A stretch of 64,000 nt of DNA from the NCBI GenBank assembly GCA_023248215.1, contig JAHFEW010000006.1:1-64000 (forward strand), read 5' to 3'. This document shows positions 2,334 through 9,820 of the stretch, in pieces. Positions within the stretch are counted from its first letter, which is position 1, and each line of letters begins with the position of its first letter. The notes under the pieces are model-generated. The model was not told the DNA's origin. It worked only from the letters and a program-made list of their open reading frames with translations, and did no database searches. Source of the stretch: Nitrospira sp. (GTDB lineage Bacteria > Nitrospirota > Nitrospiria > Nitrospirales > Nitrospiraceae). Made by a program: the position numbers and the translations under genes.

Positions 2334-2675
2334 TCAGGACTTGGCTGTCTTCTTTCCGAAGTACTCACGCCGGCTCACGGCGACATCGGAGACGAACATG
2401 ACGCCGGAATACCGATCGAACAGCGGCCGCAGCCCGGCCAGAACGGGTTCCACTTTTTCTTCCGGCACCACCGCCATAATCATCACCAGGCTTTCTTGTT
2501 CGCTGAACATGAAGTGGGCTTCACGCACACCGTGATGCCCCTTCCCCGAGATATTGCCGATGATGGTGTACCCGGTTGCCTGTACCTTGTCCAACAGCTC
2601 GGTCACAAAGGGTCGGTTCTCACCCGACACGATGACGCGGATTTCTTTCATCGGATGCAGCGTCAGTTCGCCCAT
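2334..2675 (-). CDS. P-II-like protein of the DAB operon
   Basis: 113 residues, P-II (GlnB)-like fold by sequence: KEIRVIVSGENRPFVTELLD beta-alpha start, a short T-loop region (GKGHHGVREAH) and a C-terminal SGVMFVSDVAVSRREYFGKK. P-II proteins sense nucleotides and metabolites and bind transporters; divergent P-II-like proteins are known to sit beside bicarbonate transporters and DAB genes. The start at 2675 is supported by AAAGGAG 7 nt upstream, overlapping the end of dabA. The canonical uridylylated Tyr of the T-loop is not evident, so control by GlnD is unlikely. Probable job, inferred from context: regulating the DAB pump. Confidence 0.8.
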   Translation of the reverse strand: MGELTLHPMKEIRVIVSGENRPFVTELLDKVQATGYTIIGNISGKGHHGVREAHFMFSEQESLVMIMAVVPEEKVEPVLAGLRPLFDRYSGVMFVSDVAVSRREYFGKKTAKS

Positions 2676-2678
2676 GTC

Positions 2679-5600
2679 TCAACTCCTTTGAAAAGAGGTC
2701 TTGCCCGACGTGATGCCTGTCGCGATGTATGTGTCACTGGGATTTCTGACCCGGCGCCAGACTCCCGACGGCATGAAGCGGTACCACGTTCCGTCCTCGG
2801 GGTCCAGTGCAGTCAGGTGTACCCACTCGTTGTGATAGAAATGTTGCAGCACCTCGTGCCGGGCGATGAGTTTCTCGATGCGTGCGCGCGACGCTTCGAC
2901 CAGCGTCAGGAGGCGCATGGGTTCGTGATAGGGCATGTCGTCGTTCATGACGGTCTGCCAGGCCAGGCCGAGCCGGAGATCGCTCCACGGACCGGACATG
3001 ATGCCGACGCGGCCGACGACGTTGTGATAAATCTTGCTCCCGCCTCCATAGACCTCATTATCCACGGCCGAAAAATAATGTTCCATGTTGATCCACTGCG
3101 CCACCACTTGCGCCGCGGTCAGGAGCACTTCGAGCAAGCGGTCCGTGGGGTCTTCCCGATAGTCATAGGAGTGGAGGAACACGCGTCCGGCCAAATTGAG
3201 TCCTTTCGTCAGCTCCCGCCGGCCGATGATGAAGGCGGTATTGCCGGACAAGCCCCATTCCGGTCGTACCTGGCTCCAGTCCGCGCTGCGCCCGGACACA
3301 TGGGCGGCCGCCTGGTCGAACGGCAGGACGGCGCCGACGTCAGGAAACCGGGTGCAGCGCTCCTGGCTCGTCAGCTGGGCGGCTTCTCGCAAGTCATCGA
3401 ACAGCCTGGCTACGTCTTTGCGGTGTGTCGGCGGCACGTCCTCGAGATCGAAGAGCTGTACCTCGTCCGTCGTGGTATCCACCTGGCCGGCGAGGAAGTG
3501 GGTATCCGATGGAATCTCGATGCCGCGTCTCGCCAATCGTTCCCGGACCGGCGGTCGGTTCGCCATCGCCGCGAGCACACGTGCGTTGGGTTTTCCCTCG
3601 TTCCCCCCGCAGGCGCCGCAATCCAGGGCCGATTCGAAGGGGTTGTTCTCGGTGGTGCTGCCGTGCGCGCAGAAGAGCACGAGCCGCGCGAAGTTTCTGA
3701 CCAAGCCCATCATGCGCAACGCCGTTTCGACCGTGATGACCTGCTCGTCGAGCGTGAAGCCCGTCCGCGTGATCCGTTCTTTCTGGCGCGAGGCTGCGCG
3801 GCGATTGATGCGGTACTGCTGCCGGAGCTCGTCGAGAAACGCCGTCAGTTGCTCCGCCGACAACTCGACCGACTTGGCCGCGTCGCTCAAGAAGGGTTCG
3901 ACCGGAGCATCCTCATCCAGGGCCCGTCGCCGTAAGGCCTCGACGAATTCCGGATCGACCCGTGATCCATGGAGACCGAACCGGTCGCGTAGCGCCTTCC
4001 AAATCAGCGCGCGTTGTTCGGACACCACCATCTCTTCGGTTTCGGCCGGGGCCAATTTGTCCACCGTGACGCTGGTGGCGATCGGCGGGACGAACAGGCG
4101 CCGCACCCAGCCGGTCAGGCGTTTGTACAGGGCGGGCAGCATCGTCTTTCCCACGATGGGCAGCGCGTAAAACCACCCCAGCGACTCCACCATGACGTAC
4201 GGCGTGACGACATTCTCCTTGAGATCGTGCAGCAGGGTATGGCCGGCGTGGACCAGTTTGGCTCGCGACTGGTGCTTGGACACGTAGTGATCCAGGTAGC
4301 TGCGGGGGATCTCGCGCACTTCGTTCTTCGCACGCATGATCACCGGAAACTGTTCGGTCTCATGTTCCTTGCCCCATGCCCGATAACGAATAAAGACCGC
4401 GAAGAATCCGGCGAAGCCATAGGTGTCGTTCGCGCCGGTCGATTCCAGGTGGCGGCGGAACGGCTCGGACCGCACATCAATGCAAAAGACCGATTGCGAA
4501 TGGGGCCGCACCGGCGGCTGGTGTTCGGGGACGGCCGGTTGGGGTTTGGCCGGCGCGCGCAGAAGCATGTCGAAGAGTTGATCCTGGTACCCCGCCTCGA
4601 ACGCCTTGAGCCACACGGGACCATGCGCCGATTCCGGAAAGGCGTCCATCCAATCCAGGAGTACTCGAAGGTCTGTCGGAGAACTCTCCATCAGTACGGT
4701 CGGGACGATTTCGAGCGCCTGGGCGAGCGTGAGCAGGCGTCGGGCCATGACCCGCTGCGCGGCCCGCTCGCGGCGTGGTCCGAATTCTATTTGGTCATGA
4801 TGGGTAAGCTGTTCCCACTCGTGGGAGAGGACTGCCGTTCCCTCCCGCCTGTTGCTGGTCCGGGCATGGAGCCGGTCGACCCGTTCGGCATAGGAAGCCG
4901 GCAGCCGTCCTGCGGCCCGTTCCTTGCGCATGAAGTAGGCGTGGGGTTGCTGCTCCATGTAGGTCGAGATCGCGCGATAGTTCCCTTCGATTCCCAATTC
5001 TTCTTGGCAGACTTTCTGGACCAGTTCGCGCACATACCACAAACGGACTGCGAGAAATTTCACCAGCCCGACGGGATAGGCCTGTTGCCACGCATAGTCA
5101 TTTTCTTCCGCACGCCATTTGATGAACCCGGCCCAACCGGGGAGGGCCGCGAGTTGGAGCGAGAGGTAGTCCTGCTGGAATTCCGCGGGGATCGCCAGCG
5201 CTTCGAGGCAGTCGAAGACCGTGTCCTCGGGATGCTCCGGCAGCGCGGTAATTTTTTGGCGACTCTCCGCGATGCCGCAGGTCGCCCATTCTTTCCCGGC
5301 CAGTGTTTTCCAGGCCGCATAGAGGCCCTGTTCCCGTCCCGGCATCGACCAGGTGGCATGGCCCTCGTCCAGAAAAGCCTCACACCACTTGATCAACTCG
5401 CTGTTGATCTGGTCAACAATCTGGGTTCCCAGCGTCCGGTCGCACCAACTCGAGAGCGTCACCTGTCGTCCCAATGCGGCCAGGTCCTCGCGGACCGTTG
5501 TGGCCATCCGTTCCTGCACGGTCGGCGAGGAGAGTGAAACCAGGTGCTTGGCCAGGGTGTCGATTTGCTCCTCGTTCGGCTCGCGTTCCATCAGACGATC

Positions 5601-5996
5601 GAGCGGTTCGTCCGTCGGCGTGGACAGCCCATGGGTCAGGCAGGCCCGCAACACCTCACGGTGCGAGATGCGGCAGGGGCCCAGGGCCACATCCTGGTCG
5701 CGCGCCAGCGGCGCCAACGCGTCCTCGATGTGGCGGACCAAAATCCTGCCGGACTTCAGATAGCGTCGATACACGTCACCGGGAAGATAGCCGCTGCCGC
5801 CCACAAATTGTTGGCCACGGCGGACCGTTTCAGTGAACGGGAGATACTCCAGGCTATGCAGCGGATTGTGGTGGACGAACGTCCGCATGGGCCAATACTG
5901 CGCGATCACCTCGCTGGCGAGGCGGATCATGCCCCGCAGCTCCATACGGCGCGCTTCAATGTCCAGCTGGTGGTGGGTGGTTACCAGTGGATCCAT
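2679..5996 (-). CDS. dabA: Inorganic carbon transporter subunit DabA (DUF2309)
   Basis: 1105 residues. DabA is the cytoplasmic, carbonic-anhydrase-like subunit of the DAB inorganic-carbon accumulation complex, thought to turn CO2 into bicarbonate one-way using ion motive force. The zinc site known for the family is present: C505 and D507 in SVFCIDVRSEPFRRHLES, H778 in CAHGS and C793 in DCGACGG. The spacing H to C (15) matches the characterised Halothiobacillus protein. The protein is longer than the roughly 830-residue Halothiobacillus form, with extra sequence between the two halves of the zinc site. Its start overlaps the preceding membrane-subunit gene by 16 bp, suggesting coupled translation. 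A P-II-like gene follows directly. Confidence 0.92.
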   Translation of the reverse strand: MDPLVTTHHQLDIEARRMELRGMIRLASEVIAQYWPMRTFVHHNPLHSLEYLPFTETVRRGQQFVGGSGYLPGDVYRRYLKSGRILVRHIEDALAPLARDQDVALGPCRISHREVLRACLTHGLSTPTDEPLDRLMEREPNEEQIDTLAKHLVSLSSPTVQERMATTVREDLAALGRQVTLSSWCDRTLGTQIVDQINSELIKWCEAFLDEGHATWSMPGREQGLYAAWKTLAGKEWATCGIAESRQKITALPEHPEDTVFDCLEALAIPAEFQQDYLSLQLAALPGWAGFIKWRAEENDYAWQQAYPVGLVKFLAVRLWYVRELVQKVCQEELGIEGNYRAISTYMEQQPHAYFMRKERAAGRLPASYAERVDRLHARTSNRREGTAVLSHEWEQLTHHDQIEFGPRRERAAQRVMARRLLTLAQALEIVPTVLMESSPTDLRVLLDWMDAFPESAHGPVWLKAFEAGYQDQLFDMLLRAPAKPQPAVPEHQPPVRPHSQSVFCIDVRSEPFRRHLESTGANDTYGFAGFFAVFIRYRAWGKEHETEQFPVIMRAKNEVREIPRSYLDHYVSKHQSRAKLVHAGHTLLHDLKENVVTPYVMVESLGWFYALPIVGKTMLPALYKRLTGWVRRLFVPPIATSVTVDKLAPAETEEMVVSEQRALIWKALRDRFGLHGSRVDPEFVEALRRRALDEDAPVEPFLSDAAKSVELSAEQLTAFLDELRQQYRINRRAASRQKERITRTGFTLDEQVITVETALRMMGLVRNFARLVLFCAHGSTTENNPFESALDCGACGGNEGKPNARVLAAMANRPPVRERLARRGIEIPSDTHFLAGQVDTTTDEVQLFDLEDVPPTHRKDVARLFDDLREAAQLTSQERCTRFPDVGAVLPFDQAAAHVSGRSADWSQVRPEWGLSGNTAFIIGRRELTKGLNLAGRVFLHSYDYREDPTDRLLEVLLTAAQVVAQWINMEHYFSAVDNEVYGGGSKIYHNVVGRVGIMSGPWSDLRLGLAWQTVMNDDMPYHEPMRLLTLVEASRARIEKLIARHEVLQHFYHNEWVHLTALDPEDGTWYRFMPSGVWRRVRNPSDTYIATGITSGKTSFQRS

Positions 5997-7349: not shown

Positions 7350-9044
7350 TCATGACAGCCGTTTCTCCAAGCGCTGGGCGACCAGGGTTACGACTCGGCC
7401 GAATTTGAGATAGAGCTGGTCCAGGTAGAGTCGGTTCATAAAAATGACATACAAGCGGACCAAGAACGCCTCGATCCATCCAGGAACCCTGACTGTGCGT
7501 CCATGCGCATGGGCATACAGATAAAACCAGCCCAGGATGGTCAGCAAGGTCGTCCCGACTACCAGGCTGTCGAACAGCCGCCCCGGCAGTGCCGCGGCTC
7601 GGAAGTACGACGCCACCTCATCCGCATTCGGGTACAGAAAATGGGTGAAGCTTTCCACCGCAAACAAGTACGTAAAGACGACGAAGACGAGCGTCAGCAG
7701 CATGGCGGCGGACACCTTCCAGGACGCGACGGCGCGAATGCGCGTCAGTGACAGAATGGCCTGCGAGGAGGTGACCCAGATGAAGAAGAGGAAGATCACC
7801 GTCCCCTGCGATTCGAGCAGTGGAATTCTCAAGACGCCATGCGTGACCAGCAGGATCACGAGCGGCAACAGCAGAGTCGTCAAAAAGCCCGTGGACCAGG
7901 TCAGGTTGGAGAAGCTGCTTTCTTCGGCTTCGTGCCCGGCATGAGGAAATGAGGGTTCCTGCCGGGCCTTGTGGATCACATTGCCACAGTTCAAAAAGAC
8001 AGTGCCCTTGAACAGCCCGTGCGCGATGAGATGGAACACGGCGAGGGAAAAGGCGCCTAGGCCGCATTCCATAATCATGTAGCCCATCTGGCCGATGGTC
8101 GAGAAGCCCAGGGTCTTCTTGATGTCGTTCTGGGTCAACATCATGGTGGCACCGAGGATGGCCGTGAGCATGCCGATGATGAACACGACATGCAGGGTCG
8201 TGGGGCTCAGGCCGTAGAGCGGGGCAAGACGATTCAGCAAAAATCCGCCGGCGTTGATGATCCCGGCATGCAGGAGCGCATGGACTGGGGTCGGTGCATA
8301 GAGCGATCGCGGGAGCCAGGTATGGATCGGGAACTGGGCCGACTTGCCCATGGCGCCGACGAAAATGAGTAGGGTCACCGCCGTGACACCATTCATCTCC
8401 CAGCCGAGTGCCGGCCAGAGGGAGAGGGTGACGGGAGTTTCTGCGGCCCGGGTGAAGAGCGTCTGAAATTCGAAGGTGCCATAGAGGGAATAGGCCAGGA
8501 CGATGCCGGCGAGAAACGCCACATCGCTGAGCCGCAGGACTGTGAAGGTGTTCGAGGCTCCGGCGAGCGTGGCGGCATGCGCATGGTTGTGCGCCAGAAG
8601 AAACAACAGCCACGAGAGAATTTGCCAGAATAGAAACAGCATCACCAGATTGGCGCTGGAGACCATGCAAAGCAGCACCGAGGTCGTGATGCCGAGCATT
8701 CCTAGGTACCGGCGATAGCCGCGATCTTGATACATGTAGCCCATGGAATAGCGATAGATGAGGGTGGCCACTCCCGTAATGAGGACCATCATGACCGCGC
8801 TGAGACGGTCAATGTAGAAACCGATCGGAAAGGCGAGATTGGCGATGGCGGCCGGATCGTACAGCTGGACGGTGATGGCGCCCTCGGAGGTCACCAGCAC
8901 CAAGGTGATGAGGGCCCCCAGAAAGGCCGCCAGGATGGGAAACAGCCCGGCCCTCGCGTTCTGGTCCTGATCGGTGCGATCACCGGTCATGACGATGAAC
9001 GCCGTCAACAGCGGCAACAGCGGAACGAGCACTAGGAAGGCCAT
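7350..9044 (-). CDS. dabB: Inorganic carbon transporter membrane subunit DabB (NuoL-like)
   Basis: 564 residues, first gene of the operon. It is a proton-conducting membrane transporter of the NuoL/MrpA family with the expected conserved Lys (GKSAQFPIHTWLPRSLYAPT) and LLHAGIINAGGFLLNRLAPL, followed by QNDIKKTLGFSTIGQMGYM. In DAB systems this subunit couples cation or proton flow to DabA. About 14 predicted membrane spans. It is followed 58 bp later by the second, shorter antiporter-like gene and then dabA. A structured leader with a terminator-like stem precedes it. It is not likely to be a complex I gene because no other nuo genes are present. Confidence 0.88.
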   Translation of the reverse strand: MAFLVLVPLLPLLTAFIVMTGDRTDQDQNARAGLFPILAAFLGALITLVLVTSEGAITVQLYDPAAIANLAFPIGFYIDRLSAVMMVLITGVATLIYRYSMGYMYQDRGYRRYLGMLGITTSVLLCMVSSANLVMLFLFWQILSWLLFLLAHNHAHAATLAGASNTFTVLRLSDVAFLAGIVLAYSLYGTFEFQTLFTRAAETPVTLSLWPALGWEMNGVTAVTLLIFVGAMGKSAQFPIHTWLPRSLYAPTPVHALLHAGIINAGGFLLNRLAPLYGLSPTTLHVVFIIGMLTAILGATMMLTQNDIKKTLGFSTIGQMGYMIMECGLGAFSLAVFHLIAHGLFKGTVFLNCGNVIHKARQEPSFPHAGHEAEESSFSNLTWSTGFLTTLLLPLVILLVTHGVLRIPLLESQGTVIFLFFIWVTSSQAILSLTRIRAVASWKVSAAMLLTLVFVVFTYLFAVESFTHFLYPNADEVASYFRAAALPGRLFDSLVVGTTLLTILGWFYLYAHAHGRTVRVPGWIEAFLVRLYVIFMNRLYLDQLYLKFGRVVTLVAQRLEKRLS

Positions 9045-9060
9045 ACCGATTCCATTCTTT

Positions 9061-9119
9061 TCATGAAAAGAAAAAGGCCAGCCGACGGTCCTTCAGACAA
9101 GGAACCAGCGACTGGCCTG
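9061..9119 (-). terminator. Terminator-like hairpin in the dabB leader (attenuator candidate)
   Basis: Read on the minus strand, a hairpin forms from AGGCCAG (9112-9118) and CTGGCCT (9075-9081), with an inner stem (AAGGTTCC-like arms at 9099-9106 and 9087-9093). It is followed at once by TTTTTCTTTT. The U-tract ends only about 17-20 nt before the dabB ATG. It therefore sits between leader and gene, where an intrinsic terminator would act as an attenuator. The structure is seen; conditional control is inferred. Confidence 0.6.
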
Positions 9120-9127
9120 CACTGTCC

Positions 9128-9156
9128 CCGGCCTTTCCCCGGAGGGGAAACACCGG
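9128..9156 (-). other. Second stem-loop in the dabB leader
   Basis: A strong hairpin, TTTCCCC-gga-GGGGAAA (9134-9150), is extended by an outer CCGG/CCGG pairing (9128-9131 with 9153-9156) across a small internal loop. It lies immediately upstream (minus strand) of the terminator-like hairpin. The two-hairpin arrangement suits a structured 5' leader or an unclassified riboswitch-like element. No known riboswitch class was recognised. Confidence 0.45.
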
Positions 9157-9380
9157 CAAGACCCTACTGCCTGTCTCATTGCATCAACAAAAGTGGGTCC
9201 GGGTCGCGCATGATTCACGGCCTCTCGACGGCACCACCGGAAAACTGTGTTAGATGTATCCGCGCCACCCTCGCAAATGCAAGCGAAAAGTCGAAGGAAA
9301 ATGGCCCAGTGGCTGGTCCGATGGGCCCAGTCACTCACCTCGCGTTCATGGCCATACTTCGAACGAGAAGCGGAGGGGGT

Positions 9381-9410
9381 TGGAGTCCACACGTGGCCGT
9401 GACTATAATC
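9381..9410 (+). promoter_or_regulatory. Sigma-70-like promoter for the DUF2294 gene
   Basis: A perfect TATAAT at 9405-9410 is preceded by TTGGAG at 9381-9386 with an 18-nt spacer. A start near 9417 would give a leader of about 40 nt before the GTG at 9458. The 9045-9457 stretch also contains the dabB leader hairpins on the other strand and no other gene. Confidence 0.55.
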
Positions 9411-9457
9411 GGCCCGACTCAGTCTTCCATCGGAACACGAAAAGGATCGTACTGCCT

Positions 9458-9820
9458 GTGCCCAGTAAGGGAGAAAAAGAAGCCGCGGTCCGGACCGCGG
9501 TCATCAAGTTCGAACAGGAATTTCTCGGACGCGGTCCCGACGAAGTCCGGGTGTTTATCGTGCGGGATATGTTGGTCGTCCGTTTGAAAGGAGTGCTCAC
9601 GCCCGCAGAACGGCAATTGGCCAAGACGGCGGAAGGCATCGATATGGTGAAGCGGCTTCGTCAGAACCTCATCGCCCAAGGTCGGGAGCGGCTCTGCGAG
9701 CAAGTGACGGATCTGATCGGCGCGAAGATCACGGCCTTGTTTACCGACATCGACACAGTTGTCGGAGAGCGCGTTTTCGTCTTCACATTGGAATCGGACC
9801 TTGAAGCCAATTTTCGGTAA
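9458..9820 (+). CDS. DUF2294 family protein
   Basis: About 120 residues with the DUF2294 pattern: KFEQEFLGRGPDEVRVFIVR, MLVVRLKGVLTPAERQLA, and C-terminal TDIDTVVGERVFVFTLE. The family is small, soluble and of unknown biochemical role. The start is taken as GTG at 9458; the open frame extends further upstream but composition and a promoter inside that part argue against it. AAAGGA lies 12 nt upstream. It is divergent from the DAB operon and 21 bp before selO. A link to carbon uptake is suggested only by position. Confidence 0.75.
   Translation: MPSKGEKEAAVRTAVIKFEQEFLGRGPDEVRVFIVRDMLVVRLKGVLTPAERQLAKTAEGIDMVKRLRQNLIAQGRERLCEQVTDLIGAKITALFTDIDTVVGERVFVFTLESDLEANFR

Follow-up and report, generated by a model that had tools for sequence, protein, structure and literature searches.

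Introduction

In RAT antiterminators of the BglG/LicT type, a hairpin with a conserved loop overlies an intrinsic terminator and blocks it when stabilised, and in ANTAR systems the second of two successive hairpins lies within a terminator. Overlap between an aptamer and a terminator is likewise known, as the HMP-PP riboswitch (thiS motif) is presented as a terminator-embedded aptamer in the available part of its description (PMC6478431). The DabAB/MpsAB system, to which the genes dabB, dabA and the divergent mpsC considered here belong, is presented in the available parts of its descriptions as an inorganic-carbon uptake system (PMC6689103, PMC13144422). How CO2 uptake is controlled in nitrite oxidisers, comammox organisms and iron-oxidising Nitrospirota is hardly known. 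In the literature searched on dabA, dabB or DUF2309 in Nitrospira or together with riboswitches, most subscription journals being outside its scope, no RNA control was found described, and no inorganic-carbon-sensing RNA is described in the literature searched. A word search of genome-wide RNA discovery studies, a 104-motif survey and a riboswitch review returned nothing on these organisms or genes.

The leader of dabB analysed here lies on the minus strand of a 64,000-nt stretch of a Nitrospira sp. genome (G000; contig JAHFEW010000006.1, positions 1 to 64,000), the whole of which is called the window. Like the HMP-PP riboswitch, as far as its available description goes (PMC6478431), the leader carries a small aptamer-like hairpin that shares a strand with an intrinsic terminator directly 5' of a gene; unlike it, the leader precedes carbon-uptake genes and has no Rfam match. 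Since terminator-overlapping aptamers are already known, the element is a candidate new class within that kind. With RAT sites it has in common a hairpin with conserved loop letters that would block an overlapping terminator when stabilised, but the core sequence differs; with ANTAR targets it has in common two successive hairpins, the second within the terminator, but not the hexaloops.

Results

The dabB Leader Combines Two Hairpins with a Predicted Terminator

The preliminary description had placed a two-hairpin leader with a terminator at 9061-9156. Both stems were found there, but the conserved element starts further 5', comprising hairpin B and, in front of it, hairpin A (Table 1). The full leader (9200-9045) folded with -69.4 kcal/mol, as compared to -53.3 ± 4.6 kcal/mol in 200 shuffles (z = -3.5), none of which was equally stable. 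The predicted terminator consists of a GC-rich stem (-27 kcal/mol in the window) followed by a U-tract and ends 21 nt 5' of the dabB ATG (9044), slightly further than the approximately 18 nt given before. A simple terminator scan of the window did not call it, because the stem is long and interrupted. The stem CCGG..TTTCCCC/GGGGAAA..CCGG (9156-9129, minus strand), to which attention had first been drawn, is present, but it accounts for no more than the top of the putative sensor, whose core (GGC-N-GUAGGG / CAGURC-RR-GCC) surrounds its base. The loops of the window fold have 3 and 5 nt, and loop lengths vary among copies. At the position corresponding to the putative promoter, another genus has clearer -35/-10 pairs (CTTGAC..CATATTAT).

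Table 1. Features of the dabB leader and of the adjoining genes in the window.
Feature	Position	Strand	Basis
Putative promoter: TTGCAT (9282-9277), 18 nt, TACATCT (9258-9252)	9252..9282	-	sequence; block kept within the genus; inferred
Upstream hairpin A, GTGG..CCAC base, GGACC motif	9193..9237	-	base helix kept in 30-sequence alignment
Hairpin B, putative sensor/antiterminator	9110..9175	-	CM matches; P2 covariation, nearly invariant core
Hairpin B, P1: GACaGGC with GCCaGTC	9175-9169 with 9116-9110	-	CM matches
Hairpin B, inner pairs: GUA/UGC	9167-9165 with 9121-9119	-	
Hairpin B, upper part: GG/AG internal loop, P2, apical hairpin		-	
Predicted intrinsic terminator: AGGCCAGTCG (9118-9109) with CGGCTGGCCT (9084-9075), then TTTTTCTTTT (9075-9066)	9066..9118	-	
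Shared strand GCCAGTC, alternative partner for hairpin B P1 or terminator	9110..9116	-	sequence; L284 changes
dabB (mpsB), first operon gene	7350..9044	-	Proton_antipo_M/N; orthologues 81-95% identity, dabA next
Second antiporter-like membrane subunit, 436 aa	5981..7291	-	Proton_antipo_M, 35 bits
dabA	2679..5996	-	PF10070 DabA, 887 bits
P-II-like protein, last operon gene	2334..2675	-	PF00543, 79 bits
mpsC, divergent from dabB	9254-9820	+	PF10057

Like the P-II-like protein encoded at the end of this operon, PII-type proteins adjoin some other carbon transporters too. The gene mpsC stands outside the operon, yet its position is kept, as it is divergent from dabB in most family genomes.

No Rfam 15 family reached its gathering score in the window, and a search with lax filters of the leader and 10 divergent loci gave only unrelated matches far below threshold. 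Thus, the first impression that no known riboswitch class is recognisable was borne out.

Core Letters and Paired Positions Are Conserved

Covariation was analysed, as suggested earlier for related dabB leaders, and both hairpins, i.e., P2 of hairpin B and the terminator, were found to covary strongly. Absence of the stems from related dabB leaders, which would have refuted the preliminary idea, was not observed. Among 57 divergent copies, 11 pairs of P2 and terminator showed changes on both sides, as compared to 5.5 in shuffles, and the number of cells with such changes was 87 versus 21. Of all cells, 94.9% were paired, as opposed to 21-44% for slid partners. For the terminator alone, 99.6% of the cells were paired and 4 pairs were changed on both sides.

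The core of hairpin B reads GGC-N(1-2)-GUA-GG-G[P2]C-AG-URC-RR-GCC. Its letters are nearly invariant: GUAGGG was found in 153 of 185 copies and CAGURC in 152 of 185. In separate clades, the inner loop G.G is replaced by A.A or C.A and the adjacent G-C by A-U. In many copies, P1 comprises no more than 3 bp, and most of it does not vary, so that covariation evidence for P1 depends on few cases. The clearest is L284, in which GGC/GCC/GGC has become GGT/ACC/GGT, all three partners being altered together. In a subgroup of sulP leaders, UU pairing with AA takes the place of GGC.

Hairpin A precedes hairpin B in most dabB leaders, but little covariation was measured for it in the alignment of 30 sequences, and in some copies with a likely promoter immediately 5' of hairpin B it is missing or replaced. 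Some mnhE and dabA copies have a likely promoter only about 25-30 nt 5' of the core; given this proximity, hairpin B and the terminator represent the minimal unit.

The Element Precedes Four Types of Inorganic-Carbon-Uptake Gene

Of 186 distinct copies, 182 were located directly 5' of one of four types of inorganic-carbon-uptake gene; the 27 genus seed copies had been retrieved via dabB, so that their gene context is not independent, whereas all others came from RNA-only searches. The targets were dabB (109 copies), mnhE of a dabA-linked Mrp operon (28), a SulP/BicA-like transporter (23) and dabA (22). The remaining 4 copies have no assigned target, and 2 of them are cut off by a contig end. 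Before this count, 10 weak covariance model (CM) matches lacking the full core had been excluded by eye; one of these, L305, is also located 5' of dabB, and two others, L299 and L301, are treated below. In G275 and G398, sulP, dabA and mnhE, all in one locus, are each preceded by a copy of their own. The target families were assigned with Pfam and NCBIfam (DabA, 880 and 887 bits; MNHE, 102 bits); the SulP targets matched Sulfate_transp with 177-196 bits, their similarity to BicA being sub-threshold. In most dabB loci, the terminator lies 22-27 nt 5' of the gene start.

The property common to the targets is inorganic-carbon uptake, which for the SulP proteins is presumed from BicA-like similarity and dabA neighbours. 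Na+ coupling, common to Mrp and some SulP systems, may be an alternative sensed quantity.

In L229 (808-3201, +), upstream of dabB copies and near mpsC, an element precedes the gene for a protein of 797 aa that matches no Pfam family.

No Clear Copies of the Element Were Found outside Nitrospirales

A close dabB orthologue is present in 27 genomes of the genus, and in each of them the element is found with nearly identical letters; two congeners (G027 and G031) have neither a close dabB orthologue nor the element. In G017 and G481 (Candidatus Nitrospira defluvii, FP929003.1), the element has the same position as in the window. With the covariance model R1, built from the genus dabB leaders, the element was found in 98 of 175 host-family genomes by whole-genome search, usually as one strong copy per genome. 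The family-wide model R2 detected it in 121 of the 395 genomes of the phylum sample and in 42 of 48 from a second family of the order, probably Leptospirillaceae. Scores reached up to 95 bits inside the order, as compared to weak matches of at most 29 bits outside. Among 35 further genomes, mostly of other phyla and reached via unrelated exact-pattern matches, none scored above 24 bits except N. defluvii, the sole real copy. G006, G135 and G161 possess dabB, but the element was not detected in them.

Discussion

A conserved structured domain is thus present in the 5' leaders of functionally related genes, and its sensor fold and expression platform are predicted to exclude each other: the GCC of hairpin B P1 doubles as the 5' arm of the terminator stem, this GCC is shared in most copies, and one three-way covariation was seen. 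The element is probably a cis-acting, terminator-coupled leader RNA, an orphan riboswitch-like attenuator by which Nitrospirales set the transcription of their genes for inorganic-carbon uptake. Covariation and gene context argue for the conditional terminator proposed from the window; the idea of a dabB attenuator is upheld, although the element exceeds the earlier description in size and, with four gene types, in generality.

In the window, the terminator fold (-57.9 kcal/mol) was calculated to be better than the P1 fold (-48.5 kcal/mol) by 9.4 kcal/mol. Termination would thus be the equilibrium default, and read-through would require that hairpin B is stabilised or that the terminator is escaped kinetically. 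Judging from their order, hairpin B would be transcribed before the 3' strand of the terminator. If hairpin B is not stabilised, the later strand CGGYUGGCYU would capture GCC from P1, the terminator would form, and RNA polymerase would be expected to stop just 5' of the gene. The internal-loop core and P1 could be held by a carbon-limitation signal, for which a small molecule is likelier than a protein; with both held, the base of the terminator could not close and the gene would be transcribed.

In this model, the state with stabilised hairpin B is probably ON. Should this sign hold, an increase of the signal in carbon shortage would be expected, and a limitation metabolite would fit better than bicarbonate. 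If the ligand loosened hairpin B instead, bicarbonate or CO2 would fit. One RNA before four kinds of carbon-uptake gene resembles a so far undescribed inorganic-carbon-sensing switch. It is conceivable, and put forward tentatively, that it constitutes a new riboswitch class, limited to Nitrospirales within the range of the searches, sensing inorganic-carbon status directly (bicarbonate/CO2 or a shortage metabolite) and controlling the main uptake systems via one small terminator-overlapping aptamer. The small size of hairpin B for a metabolite aptamer counts against a riboswitch-like reading. With a defined consensus and a named host (N. defluvii), the conserved RNA before four uptake gene types allows the existence of such a sensor to be tested.

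One hairpin that overlaps a terminator and is conserved in its internal loop, as hairpin B is, is typical of protein-binding sites. Hairpin B might therefore be bound by a carbon-responsive RNA-binding protein, with protein-dependent antitermination as known from RAT hairpins for BglG/LicT; this is rather unlikely. The CAT_RBD domain of BglG/LicT (PF03123) was absent from all 21 relatives searched, while control genomes gave matches, and a RAT antiterminator was rejected. An ANTAR protein (PF03861) was found in 15 of 17 element-bearing genomes, but not in G115 and G116, which are near-complete and carry strong copies; nor do the loops, which vary in length and measure 3 and 5 nt in the window, match the two conserved hexaloop stems of an ANTAR antiterminator, which was likewise rejected. 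A protein of another, so far undescribed kind may nevertheless act here.

It is improbable that the element is a weak terminator of fixed, unregulated strength or an RNA stabiliser, serving only to damp expression or to give rise to a small RNA. Terminators 5' of genes can be constitutive dampers, and the preference for the terminator fold would suit this role, but damping does not need the nearly invariant GUAGGG/CAGURC core, and a small RNA acting in trans would not have to be present separately 5' of four types of carbon-uptake gene. The translation-linked switch considered at the outset is highly improbable: short ORFs span the window leader, but start, frame and length are all unconserved among the genus leaders examined, where no conserved short ORF over the hairpins was found, and conservation falls on hairpin letters, not on codons.

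Most Nitrospirales tested encode one ANTAR-domain protein per genome (e.g., G000:C45:14636-14791). In L299 (1900-1997, -) and L301 (645-725, +), a ribosome-binding site and start codon lie 3' of a GCCAGTC..GGCTGGCTTTTTTAT terminator; the gene downstream in L299 encodes a monomeric isocitrate dehydrogenase (PF03971). Since the GUAGGG core is missing from both, they may represent a different attenuator, acting on an enzyme that handles CO2. In dabA leaders of one genus (L288:659-781, L360:659-781 and L364:3475-3597), a variant core, GUCGGA / URGAAU, occurs together with a longer continuous P1 (GGUUUGU/AUAAGCC), and the variant is possibly a subclass with changed specificity.
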